NCBI RefSeq assembly: GCF_000017205.1 | Contig: NC_009656.1 | Span: forward strand, 2,236,001 to 2,300,000 | Source of the DNA: Pseudomonas paraeruginosa PA7 | GTDB lineage: Bacteria > Pseudomonadota > Gammaproteobacteria > Pseudomonadales > Pseudomonadaceae | DNA length: 64,000 bases | Reading direction: 5' to 3' | In this document: positions 33,172 to 63,303 of the stretch, in pieces | How the letters are laid out: the number at the start of each line of letters is the position of its first letter | Position numbering within the stretch: the stretch's first letter is position 1 | Position numbers and translations under genes: made by a program | Notes under the pieces: generated by a model | What the model saw: only the letters and a program-made list of their open reading frames with translations | Databases searched by the model: none | Told to the model about the DNA's origin: nothing

Positions 33172-33345
33172 CACGCTTGCGCCCGCCCACCGCGGGTGAA
33201 TCAAACGAAAGGTTCCAGGCCGGTCTCCGGGCTCGCGCGATGCGCTTACCGTTGCGGGGGCAGCGCCGGACTGGCTCGAAGAGCGTCACCGGCTTCCCGT
33301 TTCACCTCGTGCGCGCCGGCACGAGACACCTGGGACAACCCGCCT
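33172..33345 (-). promoter_or_regulatory. Cobalamin riboswitch controlling cbtB-cbtA-cobE-cobM
   Basis: On the minus strand the leader contains GAAACGGGAAGCCGGTGA, then the B12-box core GCTGCCCCCGCAACGGTAAG and a GGAGACCGGCCTGG element, in the order of the AdoCbl riboswitch. It ends about 70 bases before cbtB, so repression of translation or early termination by cobalamin is expected. Boundaries are approximate. Confidence 0.92.
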
Positions 33346-33384
33346 AGGACAGCATGAAGGCAGACCGGGCGTCAACCGGCCCGA

Positions 33385-33413
33385 TTGACCCTGGCCGGCG
33401 CACTGCGTAGCCT
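33385..33413 (+). promoter_or_regulatory. Promoter upstream of the cobW riboswitch
   Basis: TTGACC (33385-33390), 17 bp, TAGCCT (33408-33413). A minus-strand TTGACG (33375-33370) lies back-to-back with it and is a candidate -35 for the cbtB leader, although its -10 is poor. Confidence 0.55.
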
Positions 33414-33415
33414 TG

Positions 33416-33590
33416 CCGGTTCGAGGTTCCTCGCCGGCGACGGCGGGGCTAAGAGGGAACGCGGTCGATGCCGCGGCTGCCCCCGCAACTGTGAACGGCG
33501 ATCGTTCCCCAATGCCACTGCGTGACGCGGGAAGGCGGGGAACCGGCGGCGACGCCAGACCGTGAGCCAGGAGACCTGCCTCGTCGATCC
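33416..33590 (+). promoter_or_regulatory. Cobalamin riboswitch controlling cobW-cobN
   Basis: Starts with GGTTCGAGGTTCC, has AAGAGGGAACGCGGT, the core GCTGCCCCCGCAACTGTGAAC, and CGTGAGCCAGGAGACCTGCC at the end. All are hallmarks of the AdoCbl riboswitch. It ends about 130 bases before the cobW ATG. Boundaries are approximate. Confidence 0.95.
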
Positions 33591-33717
33591 CGCGGTGCGA
33601 TGCGCGGGGAACAAGACTTCCATACAACCGGGCGGGGTGATCCGGTGGCGAATCCGTTGCGCGGCCAGCGTCCGCGCCACTCGTCCGCATGCCCGCCGAG
33701 CTGAACAAGGGCTGCCC

Positions 33718-34770
33718 ATGAAAACCCTGGCGAAACTCCCCGTCACCATCGTCACCGGCTTCCTCGGTGCCGGCAAGACCACCTTGCTCCGGCACATGCT
33801 GGACCACGCCGAAGGCCGGCGCATCGCGGTGATCGTCAACGAGTTCGGCGAACTCGGCATCGACGGCGAGATCTTCAAGCAATGCTCCATCGGTTGTAGC
33901 GAGGAGGAGGCGCAGGGCCGGGTCTTCGAACTGGCCAACGGCTGCCTGTGCTGCACCGTGCAGGAAGAGTTCTTCCCGGTGATGCGCGAGCTGGTGGCGC
34001 GCCGTGGTGACCTTGACCAGATCCTCATCGAGACCAGCGGCCTGGCCCTGCCCAAGCCGCTGGTGCAGGCCTTCCAGTGGCCGGAAATCCGCAACGCCTG
34101 CACGGTCGACGCGGTGATCACCGTGGTCGACAGCCCGGCGGTGGCGGCCGGCACCTTCGCCGCCCATCCCGAGCAGGTCGACCAGCAACGCCGCCAGGAC
34201 CCCAACCTCGACCATGAATCGCCGCTGCACGAACTGTTCGAGGACCAGTTGGCCAGCGCCGACCTGGTGATCCTGAACAAGGCCGACCAGCTCGACGCCG
34301 AGGCCCTGGCGCGGGTCCGCGCGGAGATCGCCGGGGAGCTGCCGGCGGCGGTGAAGATCGTCGAGGCGAGCCGGGGCGAGCTGCCGCTCTCGGTCCTGCT
34401 GGGACTCAACGCCGAGGCCGAGCTGCACATCGACCGCCGGCCCACCCATCACGACCACGAAGGCCACGAGGACCACGACCACGACGAGTTCGACTCCTTC
34501 CACGTCGATCTCCCCGAGGTGGAGGAAGCCGCGCTGCTCGAGGCCCTCGGCGAGCTGGTGGAGCGTCACGACATACTTCGCATCAAGGGGTTCGCCGCCA
34601 TTCCGGGCAAGCCCATGCGCCTGCTGGTGCAGGGTGTCGGCAAGCGTTTCGACAGGCACTTCGATCGCCAGTGGCTGGCCGGCGAGAACCGCCGTAGCCG
34701 CCTGGTGGTGATCGGCCAGGAACTGGACCAGGCGGCCATCGCCAACGAGCTGCGCACCGCGCTGGCCTGA
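33718..34770 (+). CDS. cobW: CobW G3E GTPase metallochaperone
   Basis: CobW, 350 residues, is a COG0523 G3E GTPase thought to deliver cobalt during corrin ring metallation. Walker A G-F-L-G-A-G-K-T-T-L-L is near residue 15, the metal-binding C-x-C-C lies in N-G-C-L-C-C-T-V, and I-L-N-K-A-D-Q is the guanine-recognition motif. A histidine-rich stretch (H-H-D-H-E-G-H-E-D-H-D-H) separates the GTPase and C-terminal domains. It sits directly upstream of cobN under the same riboswitch. Confidence 0.95.
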   Translation: MKTLAKLPVTIVTGFLGAGKTTLLRHMLDHAEGRRIAVIVNEFGELGIDGEIFKQCSIGCSEEEAQGRVFELANGCLCCTVQEEFFPVMRELVARRGDLDQILIETSGLALPKPLVQAFQWPEIRNACTVDAVITVVDSPAVAAGTFAAHPEQVDQQRRQDPNLDHESPLHELFEDQLASADLVILNKADQLDAEALARVRAEIAGELPAAVKIVEASRGELPLSVLLGLNAEAELHIDRRPTHHDHEGHEDHDHDEFDSFHVDLPEVEEAALLEALGELVERHDILRIKGFAAIPGKPMRLLVQGVGKRFDRHFDRQWLAGENRRSRLVVIGQELDQAAIANELRTALA

Positions 34771-34844: not shown

Positions 34845-37800
34845 ATGCACCTGTTGCGCACCCAACCCGGCGGCTTCGTCCCCGACGACGGCATCGCCCA
34901 CCTGGCCCAGACTCCCGCCGAGCTGGTGATCCTCTGCAGCGGCGATTCGCACCTCGCATTGCTGGCCGAGGCTGCCCGGGAGTTGCCGGACGACTACCCG
35001 AGCCTGCGCCTGGCCAATCCGATGCAATTGCAGAACCACGCCTCGGTCGACCTCTATGTCGACGAGGTGCTGCGGCATGCGCGGGTGATCCTGCTTTCGC
35101 TGCACGGCGGCATCGGCTACTGGCGCTATGGCGTCGAACAACTGGTGGCGTTGGCCGGGCGCGGCTGCGTGCTGATCCCGGTGCCCGGCGACGACCGCCC
35201 AGACCCAGAGCTGAGCGCCCTCGGCAACCTGCCGGCGGAGCAGGCCGAGCGCTTCTGGCAATACCTGCGCCAGGGCGGCCTGGAGAACGCCGGGCAGTTC
35301 TACCGTTGCCTGGCCAATCAGTGCCTGGGTCGCGACTACGCCTGGCACGAGCCGCAGGCACTGCCACGGGTGGCGCTGTTCCATCCACGGCATGCCGAGG
35401 CGACCCTGGAACACTGGCGTGCCGACTGGCAGGCCGGGCGTCCGGTGGCCGCGTTGCTGTTCTATCGCACCCACCTGCAGGCGGCGAACACCGCCTTCAT
35501 CGCACGCTTCTGCGAACGCCTCGCGGCGCAGGGGCTGAACCCGCTGCCGATCGCGGTGGCCAGCCTGAAGGAAGGTGCCTGCCTGGCCCAGGTGGAAGAC
35601 TGGCTGGCGCGCAGCGATGCCGCGCTGATCGTCAATACCACCGGCTTCGCCCAGTCCAATCCGGAAGCGCCCGAACTGCGTCCGTTCCGCCGCGACGTGC
35701 CGGTGTTGCAGGCGATCTGCTCGCTGGACAACCGTCCGCTCTGGCAGGACAACCCACAGGGCCTGGGCCCGCGCGACCTGGCCATGCACGTGGCGCTGCC
35801 GGAGCTGGACGGGCGCATCGTCACCCGGCCGATCAGCTTCAAGGGCCTGGCCTGGCGCAGCGAGCGCAGCGAGAGCGACGTGGTCTGCTACCTCGCCGAC
35901 GACGAGCGCATGGACTTCGTCGCCGAGCTGGCGCGGCGCTGGACCGAACTGGCGCGCAAGCCCTGCGCGGAAAAGCGGGTGGCGCTGGTGTTGGCCAACT
36001 ACCCGACCCGCGACGGGCGGATCGGCAACGGCGTCGGCCTGGACACCCCGGCGGCGGCGCTGAACATCCTCCGTGCCTTGCGCCAGCAGGGCTATCCGGT
36101 CGACGGCCTGCCCGCCAGCGGCACCGAGCTGATCCGCCAGTTGCTCGGTGGCGTCAGTAACGACCTCGACGACAACGACCTGCGACCCTGCGCCCAGAGC
36201 CTGGCGCTGGACGACTACCTGGCCTGCTTCGCGCGCCTGCCGGAGCGCAATCGCCAGGCGGTGCTGGCACGCTGGGGCGAGCCGCGGCAGGACCCGATGT
36301 TCCGCGGCGGGCGGATGATGATCGCCGGCCTGCGCTATGGCCTGACCTTCGTCGGCATCCAGCCGGCACGGGGTTACCAGCTCGATCCGGCGGCGGTCTA
36401 CCACGATCCCGACTTGGTGCCGCCGCACGGCTACCTGGCGTTCTATTTCTGGCTGCGCCATGCCTACCGCGCCGACGCCCTGCTGCACGTCGGCAAGCAT
36501 GGCAACCTGGAATGGCTGCCGGGCAAGGGCGTCGGCCTGTCCGCCGAATGCTGGCCGGACGCGCTGCTCGGCCCGCTGCCGAACATCTATCCGTTCATCG
36601 TCAACGATCCGGGGGAGGGCGCCCAGGCCAAGCGTCGTACCCAGGCGGTGATCATCGATCACCTGATGCCGCCGCTGACCCGCGCCGAGAGCTACGGTCC
36701 GCTGCGCGACCTGGAGCGCCTGGCCGACGAATTCTACGATGCCTCGCTGCTCGATCCCCGGCGCGCCGGGCAGTTGCGCGAGGAGATCCTCGATCTGCTG
36801 CGCGGCAACCGCCTCGACCGCGAGATCGGCCTGCAGCTCAGCGACGATCCGGACAGTTGGCTGCCGCAGCTGGACGCCTATCTCTGCGACCTGAAGGAAT
36901 CGCAGATCCGCGACGGCCTGCATGTGTTCGGCGAATCGCCGAGCGGGCGCTTGCGCCTGGACACCCTGCTGGCGCTGCTGCGGGTCCCGCGCGGCGACGG
37001 CAAGGGCGCCAACGCCGGCCTGCTGAAGAGCCTGGCCGACGACCTCGGGCTGGGCTTCGACCCGCTGGCCTGCGCCATGGGCGAGCCCTGGCAGGGCCCG
37101 CGCCCGGAATGCCTGGCGCGCGTGAGCGAGGAGCCCTGGCGCAGCCTCGGCGATACCCGCGAGCGCCTGGAGCTGCTGGCGCTGCACTGGATCGAACGCT
37201 GCCTGGAGGGCCAGCCGCCGCCCGCCGCGTGGCGCGCCAGCGGCGAGGTGTTGCGCGGCTTGTGCGAACGGGTGGCGCCGACCCTGGACGCCTGTGGCGC
37301 GGCCGAGATCGACGGGCTGCTGGCAGCCCTCGAAGGGCGCTTCGTTCCGGCCGGTCCGAGCGGCGCGCCGAGCCGCGGGCGGCTCGACGTGCTGCCCACC
37401 GGTCGCAACTTCTTCTCGGTGGACGTGCGCAACCTGCCGACCCCGACCGCCTGGCGCATCGGTTTCCAGTCGGCCAACCTGCTGCTCGAACGGCACCTGC
37501 AGGAGCATGGCGATCACCTGCGCCAGCTCGGCCTCTCGGTATGGGGCACGGCGACCATGCGCACCGGTGGCGACGACATCGCCCAGGCCTTGGCGCTGCT
37601 TGGCGTGCGCCCGGTATGGCAGGCCGGCAGCCAGCGCGTCGCCGATTTCGAGATCCTGCCGGTCTCGCTGCTGGATCGGCCGCGGGTCGACGTGACATTG
37701 CGGGTCTCCGGGTTCTTCCGCGACGCCTTCGCCAACCTGATCCGCCTGTTCGACGCGGCGGTGCAGGCGGTGGCCGGGCTGGACGAGCCCGAAGAGCTGA

Positions 37801-38591
37801 ACCCGCTGGCCGCCCGTGTGCGGCTGGAGCGGCGGCGCCTCGAAGAGCAGGGGGTTGCGCCGGCGGAAGCGCGCCGGCAGGCCGGCTGGCGGATCTTCGG
37901 CGCCAAGCCGGGCGCCTATGGAGCAGGCGTGCAGGGGGCTATCGAGGAGCGGTTGTGGCAGACCCGCGCCGACCTCGCCGAGGTCTACCTGAACTGGGGC
38001 GGCTATGCCTACGGTGCCGGCGACGACGGCACGCCGGCGCGGGAACGCTTCGCCCAGCGCCTGGAGCGCCTGCAGGCGGTGCTGCACAACCAGGACAACC
38101 GCGAGCACGACCTGCTCGATTCCAACGACTACTACCAGTTCCAGGGCGGCATGCTGGCGGCGGTGGAAACCCTGCGCGGCGCGCCGGTGGCCAGTTACCA
38201 CGGTGACCACAGCCAACCGGACAACCCGCGCATCCGCACGCTCAAGGAAGAGCTCAACCGGGTGGTGCGGGCGCGCGCGGCGAATCCGAAGTGGATCGCC
38301 GGGATGAAGCGCCACGGCTACAAGGGCGCCTTCGAACTGGCGGCGACGGTGGACTACCTGTGCGCCTTCGATGCCACCAGCGAGCTGATCGACGACCACC
38401 AGTACGCGCTGCTGGCCGACGCCTACCTGCTCGACGCCGAGACCCGCGAGTTCGTCCGCCAGCACAACCCGCGGGCCTTGCGCGACATGGCCGAGCGCCT
38501 GGTGGAGGCGCAGCGGCGCGGGCTCTGGCAGGAGCCGGGGGCCTATCGCGAGGCTCTGGAGAACCTGCTGCTGGACGTCGAAGAGGAATAG
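34845..38591 (+). CDS. cobN: Cobaltochelatase subunit CobN
   Basis: CobN, 1248 residues, is the large subunit that inserts cobalt into hydrogenobyrinate a,c-diamide. It shows L-H-V-G-K-H-G-N-L-E-W-L-P-G-K, the CobN/BchH hallmark, and a C-terminal region with N-P-K-W-I-A-G-M-K-R-H-G-Y-K-G. No CobS or CobT is visible; the small subunits are instead ChlI/ChlD-type proteins encoded at 40280-41955. Length is typical. Confidence 0.97.
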   Translation: MHLLRTQPGGFVPDDGIAHLAQTPAELVILCSGDSHLALLAEAARELPDDYPSLRLANPMQLQNHASVDLYVDEVLRHARVILLSLHGGIGYWRYGVEQLVALAGRGCVLIPVPGDDRPDPELSALGNLPAEQAERFWQYLRQGGLENAGQFYRCLANQCLGRDYAWHEPQALPRVALFHPRHAEATLEHWRADWQAGRPVAALLFYRTHLQAANTAFIARFCERLAAQGLNPLPIAVASLKEGACLAQVEDWLARSDAALIVNTTGFAQSNPEAPELRPFRRDVPVLQAICSLDNRPLWQDNPQGLGPRDLAMHVALPELDGRIVTRPISFKGLAWRSERSESDVVCYLADDERMDFVAELARRWTELARKPCAEKRVALVLANYPTRDGRIGNGVGLDTPAAALNILRALRQQGYPVDGLPASGTELIRQLLGGVSNDLDDNDLRPCAQSLALDDYLACFARLPERNRQAVLARWGEPRQDPMFRGGRMMIAGLRYGLTFVGIQPARGYQLDPAAVYHDPDLVPPHGYLAFYFWLRHAYRADALLHVGKHGNLEWLPGKGVGLSAECWPDALLGPLPNIYPFIVNDPGEGAQAKRRTQAVIIDHLMPPLTRAESYGPLRDLERLADEFYDASLLDPRRAGQLREEILDLLRGNRLDREIGLQLSDDPDSWLPQLDAYLCDLKESQIRDGLHVFGESPSGRLRLDTLLALLRVPRGDGKGANAGLLKSLADDLGLGFDPLACAMGEPWQGPRPECLARVSEEPWRSLGDTRERLELLALHWIERCLEGQPPPAAWRASGEVLRGLCERVAPTLDACGAAEIDGLLAALEGRFVPAGPSGAPSRGRLDVLPTGRNFFSVDVRNLPTPTAWRIGFQSANLLLERHLQEHGDHLRQLGLSVWGTATMRTGGDDIAQALALLGVRPVWQAGSQRVADFEILPVSLLDRPRVDVTLRVSGFFRDAFANLIRLFDAAVQAVAGLDEPEELNPLAARVRLERRRLEEQGVAPAEARRQAGWRIFGAKPGAYGAGVQGAIEERLWQTRADLAEVYLNWGGYAYGAGDDGTPARERFAQRLERLQAVLHNQDNREHDLLDSNDYYQFQGGMLAAVETLRGAPVASYHGDHSQPDNPRIRTLKEELNRVVRARAANPKWIAGMKRHGYKGAFELAATVDYLCAFDATSELIDDHQYALLADAYLLDAETREFVRQHNPRALRDMAERLVEAQRRGLWQEPGAYREALENLLLDVEEE

Positions 38592-38618: not shown

Positions 38619-39713
38619 TCAGGTGCCTGCCGCGAGGCGCCGGGCGGCGTCGCGGAGGATCCGCTCGGTGCCCTCCCAGCCGAGGCAGCCGTCGGTGATC
38701 GAGACGCCGTAGCGCAATTCGCCGCCGAGTGCCTGGCAGCCGTCGAACAGGTGGCTTTCCAGCATCACCCCGACCAGGTCGCTGGCGCCCGCCAGGCGCT
38801 GGTCCAGCACGCTGGCGAGGACGCCGGGCTGGTTCAGCGGGTTCTTGCCGCTGTTGGCGTGGCTGCAATCGACCATCATCCGCGTGGCGATGCCCTGGCT
38901 TTCCAGGGCCTGGCGTACGGCCTGCACCTGCTCGGGGCCATAGTTCGAACCGTGGCGGCCGCCGCGCAGCACCACATGGGTGTCCGGGTTGCCACGGGTT
39001 TCGATCAGCGCCGGGTGGCCGTGCGGGTCGAGGCCGAAATGGCGATGGCCGTGGGCCGCCGAGCGGATCGCGTCGCAGGCGATGCCGACGCCACCGTCGG
39101 TGCCGTTCTTGAAGCCCACCGGCAGACCGAGGCCGCTGACCAGTTCGCGGTGGATCTGCGATTCGCTGGTGCGCGCGCCGATCGCCGCCCAGCTCAGCAG
39201 GTCGTCGAAGTAGCCGGCGGCCAGCGGTTGCAGCAATTCGGTGGCCAGCGGCAGGCCGAGGCGCAGCATGTCCAGCATCAGTTGCCGGGACAGCCCCAGG
39301 CCGGCGGCCATGTCGTCGCTGCCATCCAGGTGCGGGTCGTAGGCGAGGCCTTTCCAGCCCACCGTGGTGCGTGGCTTTTCCACATAGGCGCGCATCACCA
39401 GCAGCAACTGGCCGTCGAGTTCGTCGCTCAGCGCGGCGAGGCGTTCGGCGTACTCGAGGGCGGAGCGGGGATCGTGGATCGAACAGGGACCGACTACCAC
39501 CAGCAGGCGCGGGTCGTCGCCGTCGAGGATGGCGCGGATGGCGTCGCGGCTGGCGGCGACCTGGCTGGCCAGCTCCAGCGGCAACGGCTGGCGGGCCTTG
39601 AGTTCGAGCGCGCTGGGCAGGCGCTCCAGCGCGGTGCGGGCGGCGGCGCTGGGCAGGGCGACGGCCTGGACGTTGGGCGAAAGGGCGGTCAGTGCGGATA
39701 CGGATGAATTCAT
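38619..39713 (-). CDS. 3-deoxy-7-phosphoheptulonate (DAHP) synthase, type I
   Basis: A 364-residue AroF/AroG/AroH-type enzyme that condenses PEP and erythrose-4-phosphate at the entry of the shikimate pathway. V-V-V-G-P-C-S-I-H-D appears near residue 92, then R-A-Y-V-E-K-P-R-T-T-V-G-W-K-G and G-F-K-N-G-T-D-G, with V-D-C-S-H-A-N-S-G-K at the C-terminal side. Its transcript begins with an aromatic-rich leader peptide and a terminator (attenuator) upstream, so expression is tied to aromatic amino-acid supply. It interrupts the cobalamin genes without an obvious functional link. Confidence 0.94.
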   Translation of the reverse strand: MNSSVSALTALSPNVQAVALPSAAARTALERLPSALELKARQPLPLELASQVAASRDAIRAILDGDDPRLLVVVGPCSIHDPRSALEYAERLAALSDELDGQLLLVMRAYVEKPRTTVGWKGLAYDPHLDGSDDMAAGLGLSRQLMLDMLRLGLPLATELLQPLAAGYFDDLLSWAAIGARTSESQIHRELVSGLGLPVGFKNGTDGGVGIACDAIRSAAHGHRHFGLDPHGHPALIETRGNPDTHVVLRGGRHGSNYGPEQVQAVRQALESQGIATRMMVDCSHANSGKNPLNQPGVLASVLDQRLAGASDLVGVMLESHLFDGCQALGGELRYGVSITDGCLGWEGTERILRDAARRLAAGT

Positions 39714-39925: not shown

Positions 39926-39961
39926 AAAAACAAAACCCCCGGTCGGGGAGCCGACCGGGGG
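39926..39961 (-). terminator. Attenuator terminator of the DAHP synthase leader
   Basis: On the minus strand CCCCCGGTCGG, a 4-base loop, CCGACCGGGGG (11-bp perfect stem), then TTTTGTTTTT. It starts about 50 bases after the stop of the aromatic leader peptide and lies 200 bases before the DAHP synthase ATG. Confidence 0.88.
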
Positions 39962-40011
39962 TTTGCGTGTGCAGGGTAGGCGTCCCGTATACCGTGGGCG
40001 CCGTTGGGGTA

Positions 40012-40143
40012 TCAGGCGCCGGAGTGGCTAAACCAATACCCGAAGAAATACGCGGCACGGGGTGCCTGCGGCGCACGCGCGCGCAACGGCAGACCAGGGC
40101 GCGAGGCGCTGGAATGCAGGTGCGGATGGTGGGTGTGCGGCAT
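40012..40143 (-). CDS. Leader peptide with aromatic run (DAHP synthase attenuator)
   Basis: A 43-residue frame ending in A-Y-F-F-G-Y-W-F-S-H-S-G-A: six aromatic residues (2 Tyr, 3 Phe, 1 Trp) in seven positions just before the stop. GGGAG stands 7 bases before the ATG. This is the architecture of the pheA/trp leader peptides, where ribosome stalling at aromatic codons prevents a downstream terminator from forming. The terminator is present at the right distance. The product itself is probably non-functional. Confidence 0.82.
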   Translation of the reverse strand: MPHTHHPHLHSSASRPGLPLRARAPQAPRAAYFFGYWFSHSGA

Positions 40144-40279: not shown

Positions 40280-41290
40280 ATGAGCGCTACCGTGCATTAT
40301 CCCTTGTCCGCCGTGGTCGCCGCCGACGAGCTGAAGCTGGCGCTATGCCTGGCCGCGGTCGATCCGGCGATCGGCGGGGTACTGATCGAGGGGCCGCGCG
40401 GAATGGCCAAGTCGACCTTGGCGCGGGGCGTCGCCGAGCTGCTGCCGGAGGGGGAGTTCGTTACCCTGCCGCTGGGCGCCAGCGAGGAGCGCATCGTCGG
40501 CAGTCTCGATCTGGACGCCGCTCTCGGCGAGGGCCGCGCGCGGTTTTCCCCGGGCGTGCTGGCCAGGGCCGACGGCGGCGTGCTCTACGTCGACGAAGTG
40601 AACCTGCTGCCGGACCACCTGGTGGACCTGTTGCTCGACGTCGCCGCCAGCGGCGTCAACCTGGTCGAGCGCGACGGCATCTCCCACCGGCATCCGGCGC
40701 GCTTCGTGCTGATCGGCACGATGAACCCGGAGGAGGGTGAGTTGCGTCCGCAACTGCTGGACCGTTTCGGCCTCGATGTACGCCTCGACAGCCAGCCGCG
40801 GCCGGCCGAGCGCGCCGAGATCATCCGTCGCCGGCTGGCCTTCGACGCCGATCCGCAGGCCTTCGTCGCGCGCTGGGCCAGCGAACAGGAGGCACTGCGC
40901 CGCCGTTGCGCCGAGGCGCGCCGGCGGCTGGCGCGGATTCCCTTGGACGACGCGGCGCTGGACAGCATCGCCCGGCGCTGCTTCGAGGCGGCGGTCGACG
41001 GCCTGCGCGCCGACCTGGTCTGGCTGCGCGCGGCGCGCGCCCATGCGGCCTGGCGCGGCGGCGAGAGGATCGAGGCGGAGGACATCGACGCGGTGGAACA
41101 TTTCGCCCTGTCGCATCGTCGCCGCCAGCAGTCACCGCCGACCTCGGCGGCGAATCCACCGCCCGCGGCGCCCCCCGCCAGCGGAGCGGCGGGTACCGCC
41201 GGTGGCGAAGGCCAGTGGGGCGAGCTGCCGGCGCAGCCGGTGGCCATGGGCGTTGCCCGCGAGCTGCCGCGCTGGGCAAAAAAGCCCTGA
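40280..41290 (+). CDS. ChlI-type AAA+ chelatase subunit (cobaltochelatase partner)
   Basis: A 336-residue AAA+ ATPase of the Mg-chelatase ChlI/BchI family. Walker A is [10 protein letters not shown] near residue 39, Walker [11 protein letters not shown] near 100, and [13 protein letters not shown] is the sensor/family motif. Since Pseudomonas does not make chlorophyll, and cobN is nearby without cobST, it most likely energises cobalt insertion. The last codons GCA-AAA-AAG form a -1 slippery site just before the stop, which can join this frame to the ChlD-like frame. Confidence 0.92.
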
Positions 41291-41324
41291 GCATCCGCCC
41301 GCGCTCGGTCATGGGTGCGGATGC
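41278..41324 (+). promoter_or_regulatory. Programmed -1 frameshift signal
   Basis: The heptamer A-AAA-AAG (41278-41284) is in the zero-frame phase needed for tandem slippage. A 6-base spacer containing the stop TGA follows, then an 8-bp perfect stem GCATCCGC (41291-41298) / GCGGATGC (41317-41324). After a -1 shift the ribosome reads [11 protein letters not shown] directly into the ChlD-like frame. The fused product would be about 558 residues. Confidence 0.85.
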
Positions 41325-41955
41325 CAGGACCAGACCCGGGGCGCTGCGCGGCGGTCGCAACGGCGCTCTCAGCCAGGGCGCGGAGGGCGCCATCCAGTGG
41401 CTGCCGACCCTGCTGCGCGGGCGCCCACGGCAACGCCGCGATCTGTTGCGGCAACCGCGGAGCCGAAGGCCCGGCGAACTCTGGCTGGTGATCGTCGACG
41501 CTTCCGCCAGCACCCGTCGGCACGGCGCCCTGGCCCAGGCCAAGGGGCTGCTGGCGAGCCTGTTCGAAGAGGCCTACCGGCAGCGCGCGCGCCTTGCCGT
41601 GCTGCATGCCACTGGCGCTCGGGCGCAATGGCTGTGGCAGGGGCAGAAGGTCTCGCGGGAGCTCCAGGACTGGCTGCAGCAGCTCGGCGCCGGCGGCGGT
41701 ACGCCGCTGCTCGACGCCCTGGGCCAGGCCGCCGACTGGCTGGCGCGCCGGCAACGACAGAAGCCTGCCGAGCGGCAATGCCTGCTGCTGCTTACCGACG
41801 GCCGCCTGCGCGACTGGCCGGCCGTACCGGCGGCCGCCTGCCCGAGCCTGCTGGTCGACCTGGAAAGCGGCCCGCTGCGCCTCGGCAAGGGCGAGCGCCT
41901 GGCCCGGGAACTGGGCGCGCAGTACTTGCACATCAGCGCGCTGCAGCCCGCCTGA
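41311..41955 (+). CDS. ChlD-type VWA chelatase subunit (frame reached by -1 frameshift)
   Basis: A von Willebrand A domain region, 214 residues from the first ATG. The MIDAS motif is V-D-A-S-A-S-T, and L-L-L-L-T-D-G-R follows later. This is the ChlD/CobT-type C-terminal half that bridges ChlI and the large subunit. The ATG at 41311 has no good ribosome-binding site and lies inside the frameshift stem-loop, so the main product may be the ChlI-ChlD fusion made by frameshifting at 41278-41284. A basic linker (R-G-R-P-R-Q-R-R) precedes the VWA domain. Confidence 0.85.
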   Translation: MGADARTRPGALRGGRNGALSQGAEGAIQWLPTLLRGRPRQRRDLLRQPRSRRPGELWLVIVDASASTRRHGALAQAKGLLASLFEEAYRQRARLAVLHATGARAQWLWQGQKVSRELQDWLQQLGAGGGTPLLDALGQAADWLARRQRQKPAERQCLLLLTDGRLRDWPAVPAAACPSLLVDLESGPLRLGKGERLARELGAQYLHISALQPA

Positions 41956-42042: not shown

Positions 42043-43650
42043 TTACTTGATGAAGTCGTGGCCCCAGCGCTCGATCTGGCTGGCGCTCTTCTGCATCTGC
42101 AGCGAGGACCTGGCTTTCTGTCCGGCAGCGGCGATCTCGTCGTCGACCACCTTGGTCGACAGCGACAGCCAACTGGTCACGAAGGCCATGGCATCGCTGT
42201 GGATCTCCAGGGCGTCCTGGTTGATGTTGGCGATGCCGTCGCACTTGCTGTGGTAGCACTCGTCGTAGGCCTTGCCGGCGGTGCCGCCGTACTTCTGCGC
42301 CTGTTCTTCGGTCTTCAGACCCTCGGCGCCGGTGAACAGGCCGCCGAAGGCGATGCCGCTGTTGAAGAATTCGGCGTAGTCGGAGCGGAAGTCGATCTCG
42401 GTGCCTTCCGACTGCTGGCCGCGCAGGCGGAAGTAGGCCTCGAACAGGCGCTCGATGGCGGCCGAGCCGGGCGGGCCCTGCAGGCCGAAGTCGGAGCCGT
42501 CGCCGTCATAGATGAAGTTGCCGAAGTTCGGCGAACCGATCATGTCGAAGTTCAGGTAGGCCTTGATCTTCTTCTTCTCTTCCGGTGCGAGGTTCTGCAC
42601 GTAGTAGGTCGAGCCGACCAGCCCGGCTTCCTCGGCGCCCCACCAGGCGAAGCGCACCTTGTTCACCGGCAGCGCCTTGGCCAGCAGCACGGCCATTTCC
42701 AACTGAGCGGCGCTGCCCGAGCCGTTGTCGTTGATGCCGGGACCTTCGAACACCGAGTCGAGGTGCGCGCCGACCATCACCACGTTGTTCGGGTTGCCGC
42801 GCCGGGTCTCGGCGACCACGTTGTAGGTCTCGGTCTTCTTGCGTACCACGTCGACCACCAGGTGCAGCTGCAGGTCCGGGGTCTGCGACCAGGCCACGCC
42901 GTTGTCGTAGGTGGCGAAGATCACCGGGATGCCGCCCTCGTAGGATTCGCCCACGGTGACGTTCTCCAGGCCCTTGCGGTCGTCGGTATTGCCCTGGTTG
43001 AAGATGATCACCCCGGCGGCGCCGGCGGCCGCGGCGTTCTCGGCCTTCTGTTCGAAGTTGCAGGTGCCGCGCTGGATCAGCGCGATCGAGCCGGCCGGGA
43101 AGTTGGCGAAGTCTTCCGCCTCGCAGCCGCTGGTGGAGGTGTTGCCGGCGCCGAGGGACAGGTCCACCGGGACCACCTTGGCGGTGACGTCGCCGGCCTC
43201 GGTCTGCGACAGGTAGGTGAAGTCCTTCTCCCATTCGTAGGTGACCGGCTGCGGCACGGTGGCGCTCAGGCTGCCCGGGCCTTTCGGATAGTAGGCGGTG
43301 AACGGGAAGGGCTGCACCGAAACCTTGTAGCCGGCCTTCTCAAGCGTCTGCTTCACGTAGTCGACGGAGGCCTGGTAGCCCGGCGTGGCGGCGGCGCGGT
43401 TGCCGTCGTTGAGGGTGGCGATGTCCTCGAGCTTCTGCAGGCGCTTCGTCACGTTGCTCGCCTGCAAGCAGCGTGGCAGTCCGAGCGGGGTGCTGACCAG
43501 CAGCGGTGACTTGCAGATCGACGGGTTGGGTTTGCCCGGGGTCCAGAACTCGGTGAACTGTTGCGCTTCCGAGGGGGCTGCCAGGCTCGCGGCGGAGACC
43601 GACAGGGCCAGGGCGCCGAGGGCGAATCTGAGATTGTTCTTGTTGCTCAT
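42043..43650 (-). CDS. Secreted M28 zinc aminopeptidase (PaAP)
   Basis: A 535-residue secreted leucine-type aminopeptidase. A signal peptide ends about residue 24 (A-L-S-V-S-A-A-S-L-A-A). A protease-associated (PA) domain is inserted mid-protein, followed by the M28 core with V-G-A-H-L-D-S-V, N-D-N-G-S-G-S, and W-G-A-E-E-A-G-L-V-G-S carrying zinc and catalytic residues. It corresponds to PaAP (PA2939), a type II-secreted, quorum-sensing-controlled enzyme abundant in vesicles and biofilm. A CT-N12-AG element lies about 90 bases upstream. Confidence 0.95.
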   Translation of the reverse strand: MSNKNNLRFALGALALSVSAASLAAPSEAQQFTEFWTPGKPNPSICKSPLLVSTPLGLPRCLQASNVTKRLQKLEDIATLNDGNRAAATPGYQASVDYVKQTLEKAGYKVSVQPFPFTAYYPKGPGSLSATVPQPVTYEWEKDFTYLSQTEAGDVTAKVVPVDLSLGAGNTSTSGCEAEDFANFPAGSIALIQRGTCNFEQKAENAAAAGAAGVIIFNQGNTDDRKGLENVTVGESYEGGIPVIFATYDNGVAWSQTPDLQLHLVVDVVRKKTETYNVVAETRRGNPNNVVMVGAHLDSVFEGPGINDNGSGSAAQLEMAVLLAKALPVNKVRFAWWGAEEAGLVGSTYYVQNLAPEEKKKIKAYLNFDMIGSPNFGNFIYDGDGSDFGLQGPPGSAAIERLFEAYFRLRGQQSEGTEIDFRSDYAEFFNSGIAFGGLFTGAEGLKTEEQAQKYGGTAGKAYDECYHSKCDGIANINQDALEIHSDAMAFVTSWLSLSTKVVDDEIAAAGQKARSSLQMQKSASQIERWGHDFIK

Positions 43651-63029: not shown

Positions 63030-63240
63030 CCCGCCCACCGCGGGTGTGCCAACAGGGCGTTGCAGGCCGGTCTCCGGGCTTGCGAGGGTCGTGAGATCCT
63101 CGCCTTCCCATGCCGGAGCACAGTGGCCTGATGAGGATCTCGCTCGCTTACCGTTGCGGGGGCAGCGCCGGACTGGTCACCGAAGTGACGCACCGGCTTC
63201 CCGTTTCACTCCCTGCGCGGCGGCAGGGAGCACCTGGAAC
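63030..63240 (-). promoter_or_regulatory. Cobalamin riboswitch before the TonB receptor operon
   Basis: On the minus strand: GTGAAACGGGAAGCCGGTG, the core AGTCCGGCGCTGCCCCCGCA with ACGGTAAGCG after it, and CCCGGAGACCGGCCTGCAAC. This is the AdoCbl riboswitch pattern. Its downstream end shares the 15-base word CGCCCACCGCGGGTG (plus strand 63032-63046) with the cbtB riboswitch (33184-33198). Boundaries are approximate. Confidence 0.93.
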
Positions 63241-63303
63241 GGGGCGGATGGGAACATCCGCACCCTTTCCAGTCAAGCCTTGAACGATCTGGATTGGAAA
63301 AAA

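Follow-up and report, generated by a model that had tools for sequence, protein, structure and literature searches.

A ChlI-like ATPase frame in Pseudomonas paraeruginosa PA7 is followed by a VWA (ChlD-like) frame in the -1 phase, which raises the question of how the VWA half is translated and which proteins the two frames give. The locus was analysed in a window of 64,000 nucleotides (the whole stretch of DNA studied; contig NC_009656.1, positions 2,236,001 to 2,300,000 of the forward strand) and compared across related genomes. Judging from these sequence comparisons, the answer is very probably programmed -1 frameshifting in the fs-chlD gene of the aerobic vitamin B12 pathway, which would yield the ATPase as a short product and a ChlI-ChlD fusion as a long one, and this is by far the best reading of the locus. 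The same reading had been put forward in a preliminary description of the window and is upheld by a slippery heptamer found in all 131 shifted loci, by a stem that is conserved and covarying in the core group of relatives and by the lack of a conserved ATG for the VWA half. The PA7 gene would be a clean case of one gene giving two vitamin B12 enzyme subunits via frameshifting and, for the window, a probable route to the small and medium cobaltochelatase subunits.

Reading frames and slip site at the PA7 locus

The last codons of the 0 frame in the window are GCA AAA AAG CCC TGA, so that the A_AAA_AAG at 41278-41284 lies in phase for a -1 slip (Table 1). Beyond the spacer, GCATCCGC (41291-41298) and GCGGATGC (41317-41324) can form a perfect 8-bp stem. 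The -1 open reading frame with the VWA half spans 40906-41955 in the list of open reading frames and remains open to 41955, and a slip would join 335 residues to 223 residues in a predicted product of 558 aa. The ChlI-like end, the in-phase heptamer, the 6-base spacer, the 8-bp stem, the -1 frame leading into the VWA domain and a fusion of roughly 558 aa had all been listed in the preliminary description, and each of them is present in the sequence. The VWA part contains DASAS, which we take to be a MIDAS-type DxSxS motif.

Table 1. Features of the fs-chlD locus and its neighbourhood, in window positions.
Feature	Position	Strand	Evidence
Cobalamin riboswitch upstream of cobW-cobN	33407..33597	+	Rfam RF00174, 109 bits
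cobW	33718..34770	+	TIGR02475, 569.6 bits vs cut-off 332.1
cobN, aerobic cobaltochelatase large subunit	34845..38591	+	TIGR02257, 1847.7 bits vs cut-off 822.05
DAHP synthase gene, between cobN and ChlI frame	38619-39713	-	ORF list and profile match
sRNA P15, between cobN and ChlI frame	39936-40054	-	
0-frame ORF, predicted short product, ChlI-like AAA+ ATPase, 336 aa	40280..41290	+	ORF list and profile matches
Slippery heptamer A_AAA_AAG, -1 phase	41278..41284	+	Window letters; kept in relatives
Spacer CCCTGA, 6 nt, contains 0-frame stop codon 41288-41290	41285..41290	+	Window letters
Stem-loop, likely stimulatory, 8 bp, possible extra inner pairs	41291..41324	+	Folding, covariation, anchored search
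In-frame ATG of VWA frame, rival start, inside stem loop, not conserved	41311..41313	+	Window letters; relatives
Predicted -1-frame part after slip, linker and VWA (ChlD-like) domain, 223 aa	41284..41955	+	ORF list and profile matches

In the proposed mechanism, ribosomes that stay in frame would stop at 41288-41290 and release the 336-aa ChlI-like ATPase as the small subunit, and the stem-loop 6 nt downstream would help a fraction of the ribosomes to slip by -1 on A_AAA_AAG. The slipped ribosomes would read the VWA frame and produce the 558-aa ChlI-ChlD protein as the medium subunit; together with CobN, the short and long products would then form a cobaltochelatase that dispenses with CobS and CobT. 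The occurrence of frameshifting in PA7 itself, its rate and the assembly of both products with CobN are what we infer, and our literature search found no protein or ribosome data for the PA7 fs-chlD gene.

The ChlI-like and VWA halves were found to match different parts of the single-chain NCBIfam model TIGR02442, the first with 1.2e-121 and the second with 2.6e-22 at model positions 458-640. Scored separately, they reach 407.3 and 79 bits, both below the whole-protein cut-off of 779.45. The ChlI-like half also matches TIGR02030 (under the cut-off) and the Pfam families AAA_5, AAA_lid_2 and Mg_chelatase, and the VWA half also matches Pfam VWA_2. The in-frame single-chain cobaltochelatase subunit described by TIGR02442 has the same two domains as the PA7 gene, whereas in 8 relatives it is encoded in one open frame without a -1 shift.

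The arrangement at this locus is more than would be expected by chance. A total of seventeen A6G runs, on either strand, were counted in 464 kb sampled from the 6.59-Mb genome (the window and 20 further stretches, each of 20 kb). Two of them passed a frame filter that required 100 or more open codons before the run, a 0-frame stop no more than 15 codons away and 100 or more open codons in the -1 frame, namely the chlI/chlD site and a site at L193:8556. The latter lies upstream of an AraC-like frame and, by reading, its stretch resembles the antisense of a transporter gene; it was therefore taken as a chance occurrence and rejected as a second frameshift site.

Conservation of the slippery heptamer

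The loci compared came from genomes of the genus, genomes of the family and additional named genomes. The ChlI part was present in 24 of 25 genus genomes and in 272 of 398 genomes in the family sample, and junctions were read in the best matches together with 26 genomes picked for spread, 25 of which matched. Among the loci L001-L149, only L002 had no match, and the 148 loci with a ChlI match comprise 131 that are -1-shifted at the VWA half, 8 in which both halves share a frame and 9 that were unreadable, having no readable stop or VWA match (L026, L035, L100, L105, L106, L107, L122, L138 and L139). Most of the lineages examined keep the shift and a few use a single chain. The window's own sequence is represented twice (L001 and L003), and comparison over 120 nt leaves 124 distinct sequences among the 131. 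Loci whose identity to the ChlI part of the window exceeds 65%, mostly from Pseudomonas or its family, are referred to here as the core.

An in-phase heptamer just before the stop codon was observed in every one of the 131 shifted loci, as A_AAA_AAG in 126 and A_AAA_AAA in five. All 110 distinct core genes use nnA-AAA-AAG at this place. Elsewhere in the same genes AAA accounts for 330 of 1098 lysine codons, CCA for 396 of 4010 proline codons and GCA for 753 of 8925 alanine codons, and the encoded protein would not by itself require the run to be kept. As in fs-chlD genes, the in-phase A_AAA_AAR is thus under purifying selection, by its presence in 131/131 loci and by the codon control. This conservation is the strongest evidence for the frameshift signal at the junction. 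In an Azotobacter plasmid copy, the heptamer, spacer and outer stem arms are the same as in PA7.

Such conservation bears directly on the two weakest of the competing explanations. The idea that a mutation or a sequencing error has shifted the frame of a formerly fused gene, which would fit the in-frame arrangement seen in 8 of 117 readable sequences (three of the 117 are copies of the window's own), is refuted by the conservation of the -1 arrangement and the same signal in 131 loci from many genomes, and we regard it as practically out of the question. Slippage of RNA polymerase at the A run, giving a mixed mRNA pool from which a fusion could be made without any ribosomal slip, is somewhat less remote but still highly improbable: although some relatives have at least seven A, PA7 has six, which is short for polymerase slippage. 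Phase and final G are preserved in 126 of the 131 loci, and 92 of 98 core junctions preserve the stem, at a distance that is usual for ribosomal frameshifting.

The downstream stem and other possible stimulators

In an anchored search, a stem of at least 8 bp, with G-U pairs allowed, was found at those 92 distinct core junctions, compared with 4.3% of 1960 random places, and the other six have a stem of 6-7 bp. Conservation of the heptamer and stem across relatives had been suggested beforehand as a check on the frameshift reading, and the outcome speaks for it on both counts. In two loci (L099 and L104) the arms are quite different and still pair. Stems of this length were found in five of the 14 distant sequences.

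When 90 distinct core junctions were aligned, 94.0% of the stem cells paired, against 24-53% with one arm slid by 1-3 columns, and these aligned counts come out too low in junctions with a shorter loop (fewer than six of the eight pairs in 10 of the 90 rows). The covariation score of the stem is 0.159, compared with a shuffled mean of 0.116, and none of 500 shuffles scored as high. One pair varies in these junctions, being C-G in 56 rows, U-A in 17 and U-G in 11. Neither the number of pairs changed on both sides (three; 136 of 500 shuffles as high) nor the number of further pair types (nine; 130 of 500 as high) exceeded the shuffles. An 11-bp version with three inner pairs added was tried and rejected. 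Only 86.5% of its cells pair, and sliding one arm by +2 gives more cells changed on both sides than the true register does (32 versus 24); we therefore limit the claim of a stem to the outer 8 bp.

Folding energy is weak evidence here, as it does not by itself mark the window's stem in GC-rich DNA. The window gave a z of -0.57 over 61 nt (58 of 200 shuffles as good) and -1.58 over 34 nt (13 of 200), and the values in four relatives were -5.20 (L076), -3.17 (L093), 0.02 (L119) and -3.85 (L116). It is the comparison between species that establishes the predicted stem. A downstream RNA structure of the kind that stimulates fs-chlD frameshifting is thus seen at this locus, and it would presumably act as a stimulator.

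The shift site in E. coli dnaX is A_AAA_AAG, the same as in the PA7 gene, and dnaX likewise makes two products from one gene. The dnaX shift yields the short product and has a Shine-Dalgarno-like element upstream, whereas in PA7 the shift would yield the long product. Also unlike dnaX, a Shine-Dalgarno-like 4-mer upstream is rare in core junctions (11 of 108); it was found in 10 of the 14 distant ones. The upstream element in the window is weak, with a pairing energy of -2.2 kcal/mol that is equalled at 64% of background places, and the upstream stimulator of a dnaX-type cassette was not found there. The pairing in the distant group is modest as well, and we treat it as a lead only because 23% of background places are as good as its median sequence. 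The reverse arrangement, in which a shift would give the short form as in dnaX, was looked for as in-phase slippery heptamers and A/T runs in the 8 in-frame genes and in L122 (among the matches listed, with its VWA half N-masked), and no shared linker signal was found.

CobS, CobT and the need for two products

The preliminary description further held that the products of this gene replace CobS and CobT. This would hold for the PA7 genome (G000), where cobN is present and no CobS or CobT match and no other small-subunit gene (chlI/cobS) was found, but it does not extend to the frameshifted genes in general. PA7 has one ChlI locus, matched as two pieces of one gene, and weaker AAA relatives, the best at 2.7e-11. 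Among ten other frameshifted genomes, a CobS match was found in four, strong in G031, G408 and G411 and weak in G407 (7.2e-35), none of them over the cut-off, and six were without one. The lack of another small-subunit gene is therefore not general, and these matches argue against the shift simply replacing CobS. The frameshifted genes that stand in the same genomes as the three strong matches are L144, L117 and L123 respectively, so that sources of the small subunit can coexist.

CobS was found in three of the eight in-frame relatives (G399, G402 and G404) and was not found in five. A full-length CobN match was observed in four of the CobS-less relatives (G398, G400, G401 and G403, with the single-chain loci L109, L111, L112 and L115), and no second close ChlI was found in any of the five; these absences of CobS and ChlI hold as far as the genome sequences of the in-frame relatives are complete. 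No CobN match was found in G404. The CobN match of G405 (Marinomonas sp. MED121; L207 and L208) is split into two parts that lie about 13 kb apart on one contig and on opposite strands, which may reflect a rearrangement, a misassembly or two genes.

The existence of eight single-chain relatives, four of which have CobN while neither CobS nor another close ChlI was found in them, argues against a strict need for two products. The frameshift accompanies a missing small-subunit gene in PA7, but neither is universal, as CobS is present or absent in both frameshifted and in-frame genomes. It is conceivable, though on balance unlikely, that the frameshift is not what makes the enzyme possible and instead adjusts how much long subunit is made relative to the short one, perhaps in response to conditions; the core, with its stem and rarely a Shine-Dalgarno-like element, and the distant group, mostly with the Shine-Dalgarno-like 4-mer and often without the stem, would in that case rely on different stimulators of one and the same slip. 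This suggestion arises because in-frame relatives with CobN seem to manage with just the long chain and because CobS is retained in some frameshifted relatives.

Possible separate initiation of the VWA half

The main alternative to the -1 slip as a source of the VWA half is that two separate genes exist, with the VWA protein started at the ATG at 41311 by coupling or reinitiation past the ChlI stop. This ATG begins 21 nt beyond the last base of the stop codon, and a public Azotobacter record indeed annotates a VWA CDS overlapping the AAA gene, which illustrates that annotation can split fs-chlD into two genes. On the other hand, within about 60 nt an in-frame ATG occurs in only nine of the 131 loci (two of them the window's own), only GTG or TTG in 21 more and no start in 101, so that initiation near 41311 cannot be the conserved route to the VWA half. 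By reading, no sequence resembling a ribosome-binding site lies just upstream of the ATG. Its position in the stem-loop and its poor initiation context had been pointed out in the preliminary description; the window letters agree, and the comparison adds that the codon is not conserved. Separate initiation would also leave the kept heptamer and stem unexplained, and the stem would if anything hinder it. As an account of the locus it is very improbable, although the ATG may add some separate VWA protein in PA7. Programmed -1 frameshifting would account for the VWA half together with the heptamer and the stem.

Published precedents

Frameshifting of fs-chlD in Pseudomonas has been in the literature since 2013, and the finding in PA7 is correct and not new. 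Antonov et al. 2013 (PMC3711429) found frameshifted 'magnesium chelatase' genes, 23 in all, in six genera, Pseudomonas among them, and measured 63, 40 and 10% frameshifting in E. coli for cassettes whose A runs are 11, 9 and 7 long. As PA7 has A6G, these values, as far as the available text goes, do not give the rate for its gene. The chlD frameshift is linked to cobN by Kuznetsov et al. 2022 (PMC9227772), which matches the report to which the preliminary description alluded; earlier measurements (PMC3711429) and a review (PMC5009743) also exist. As portrayed in PMC3711429 and PMC9227772, the fs-chlD cluster resembles PA7 in having its halves in different frames, a -1 shift on an A run, a downstream structure and genomes with cobN, and it differs in nothing essential, the cassettes tested having longer A runs.

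The review by Atkins et al. 2016 (PMC5009743) reports A_AAA_AAR for the magnesium chelatase genes of Pseudomonas and shows the stem of P. protegens, whose outer arms GCATCCGC/GCGGATGC match the PA7 stem. It does not consider the sequence of the structure to be strongly conserved and proposes that purine-rich arms form a triplex, whereas the stem is well conserved in the 90 core junctions analysed here. In the 3' arm, five of the outer 8 nt are purines in 82 of the 90 core rows and fewer in eight, and in no row are all of them purines; such counts would neither prove nor exclude a triplex in the inner part. What our analysis adds is how far the signal is conserved, that the stem covaries and that the rival start is not conserved.

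Gene neighbourhood

The gene had been described as standing beside CobN. In PA7 it is not directly adjacent, as the DAHP synthase gene and the sRNA P15 intervene. A cobN upstream on the same strand was found for all 67 of the -1-shifted named loci, and the DAHP synthase gene intervenes in six of these, so the PA7 order is a minority arrangement. Within the 3-kb flank of the in-frame loci, cobN was found upstream on the same strand in one of eight.

A second cobalamin riboswitch (33201-33348, minus strand) lies back to back with the one listed in Table 1 and faces a minus-strand run that includes CbtA, a CbiG-like piece and CobM. A third is located at 63048-63252, also on the minus strand. Downstream of the VWA frame, at 42043-43650 (minus strand), lies an aminopeptidase-like gene that matches the M36 and LapA models below their cut-offs.
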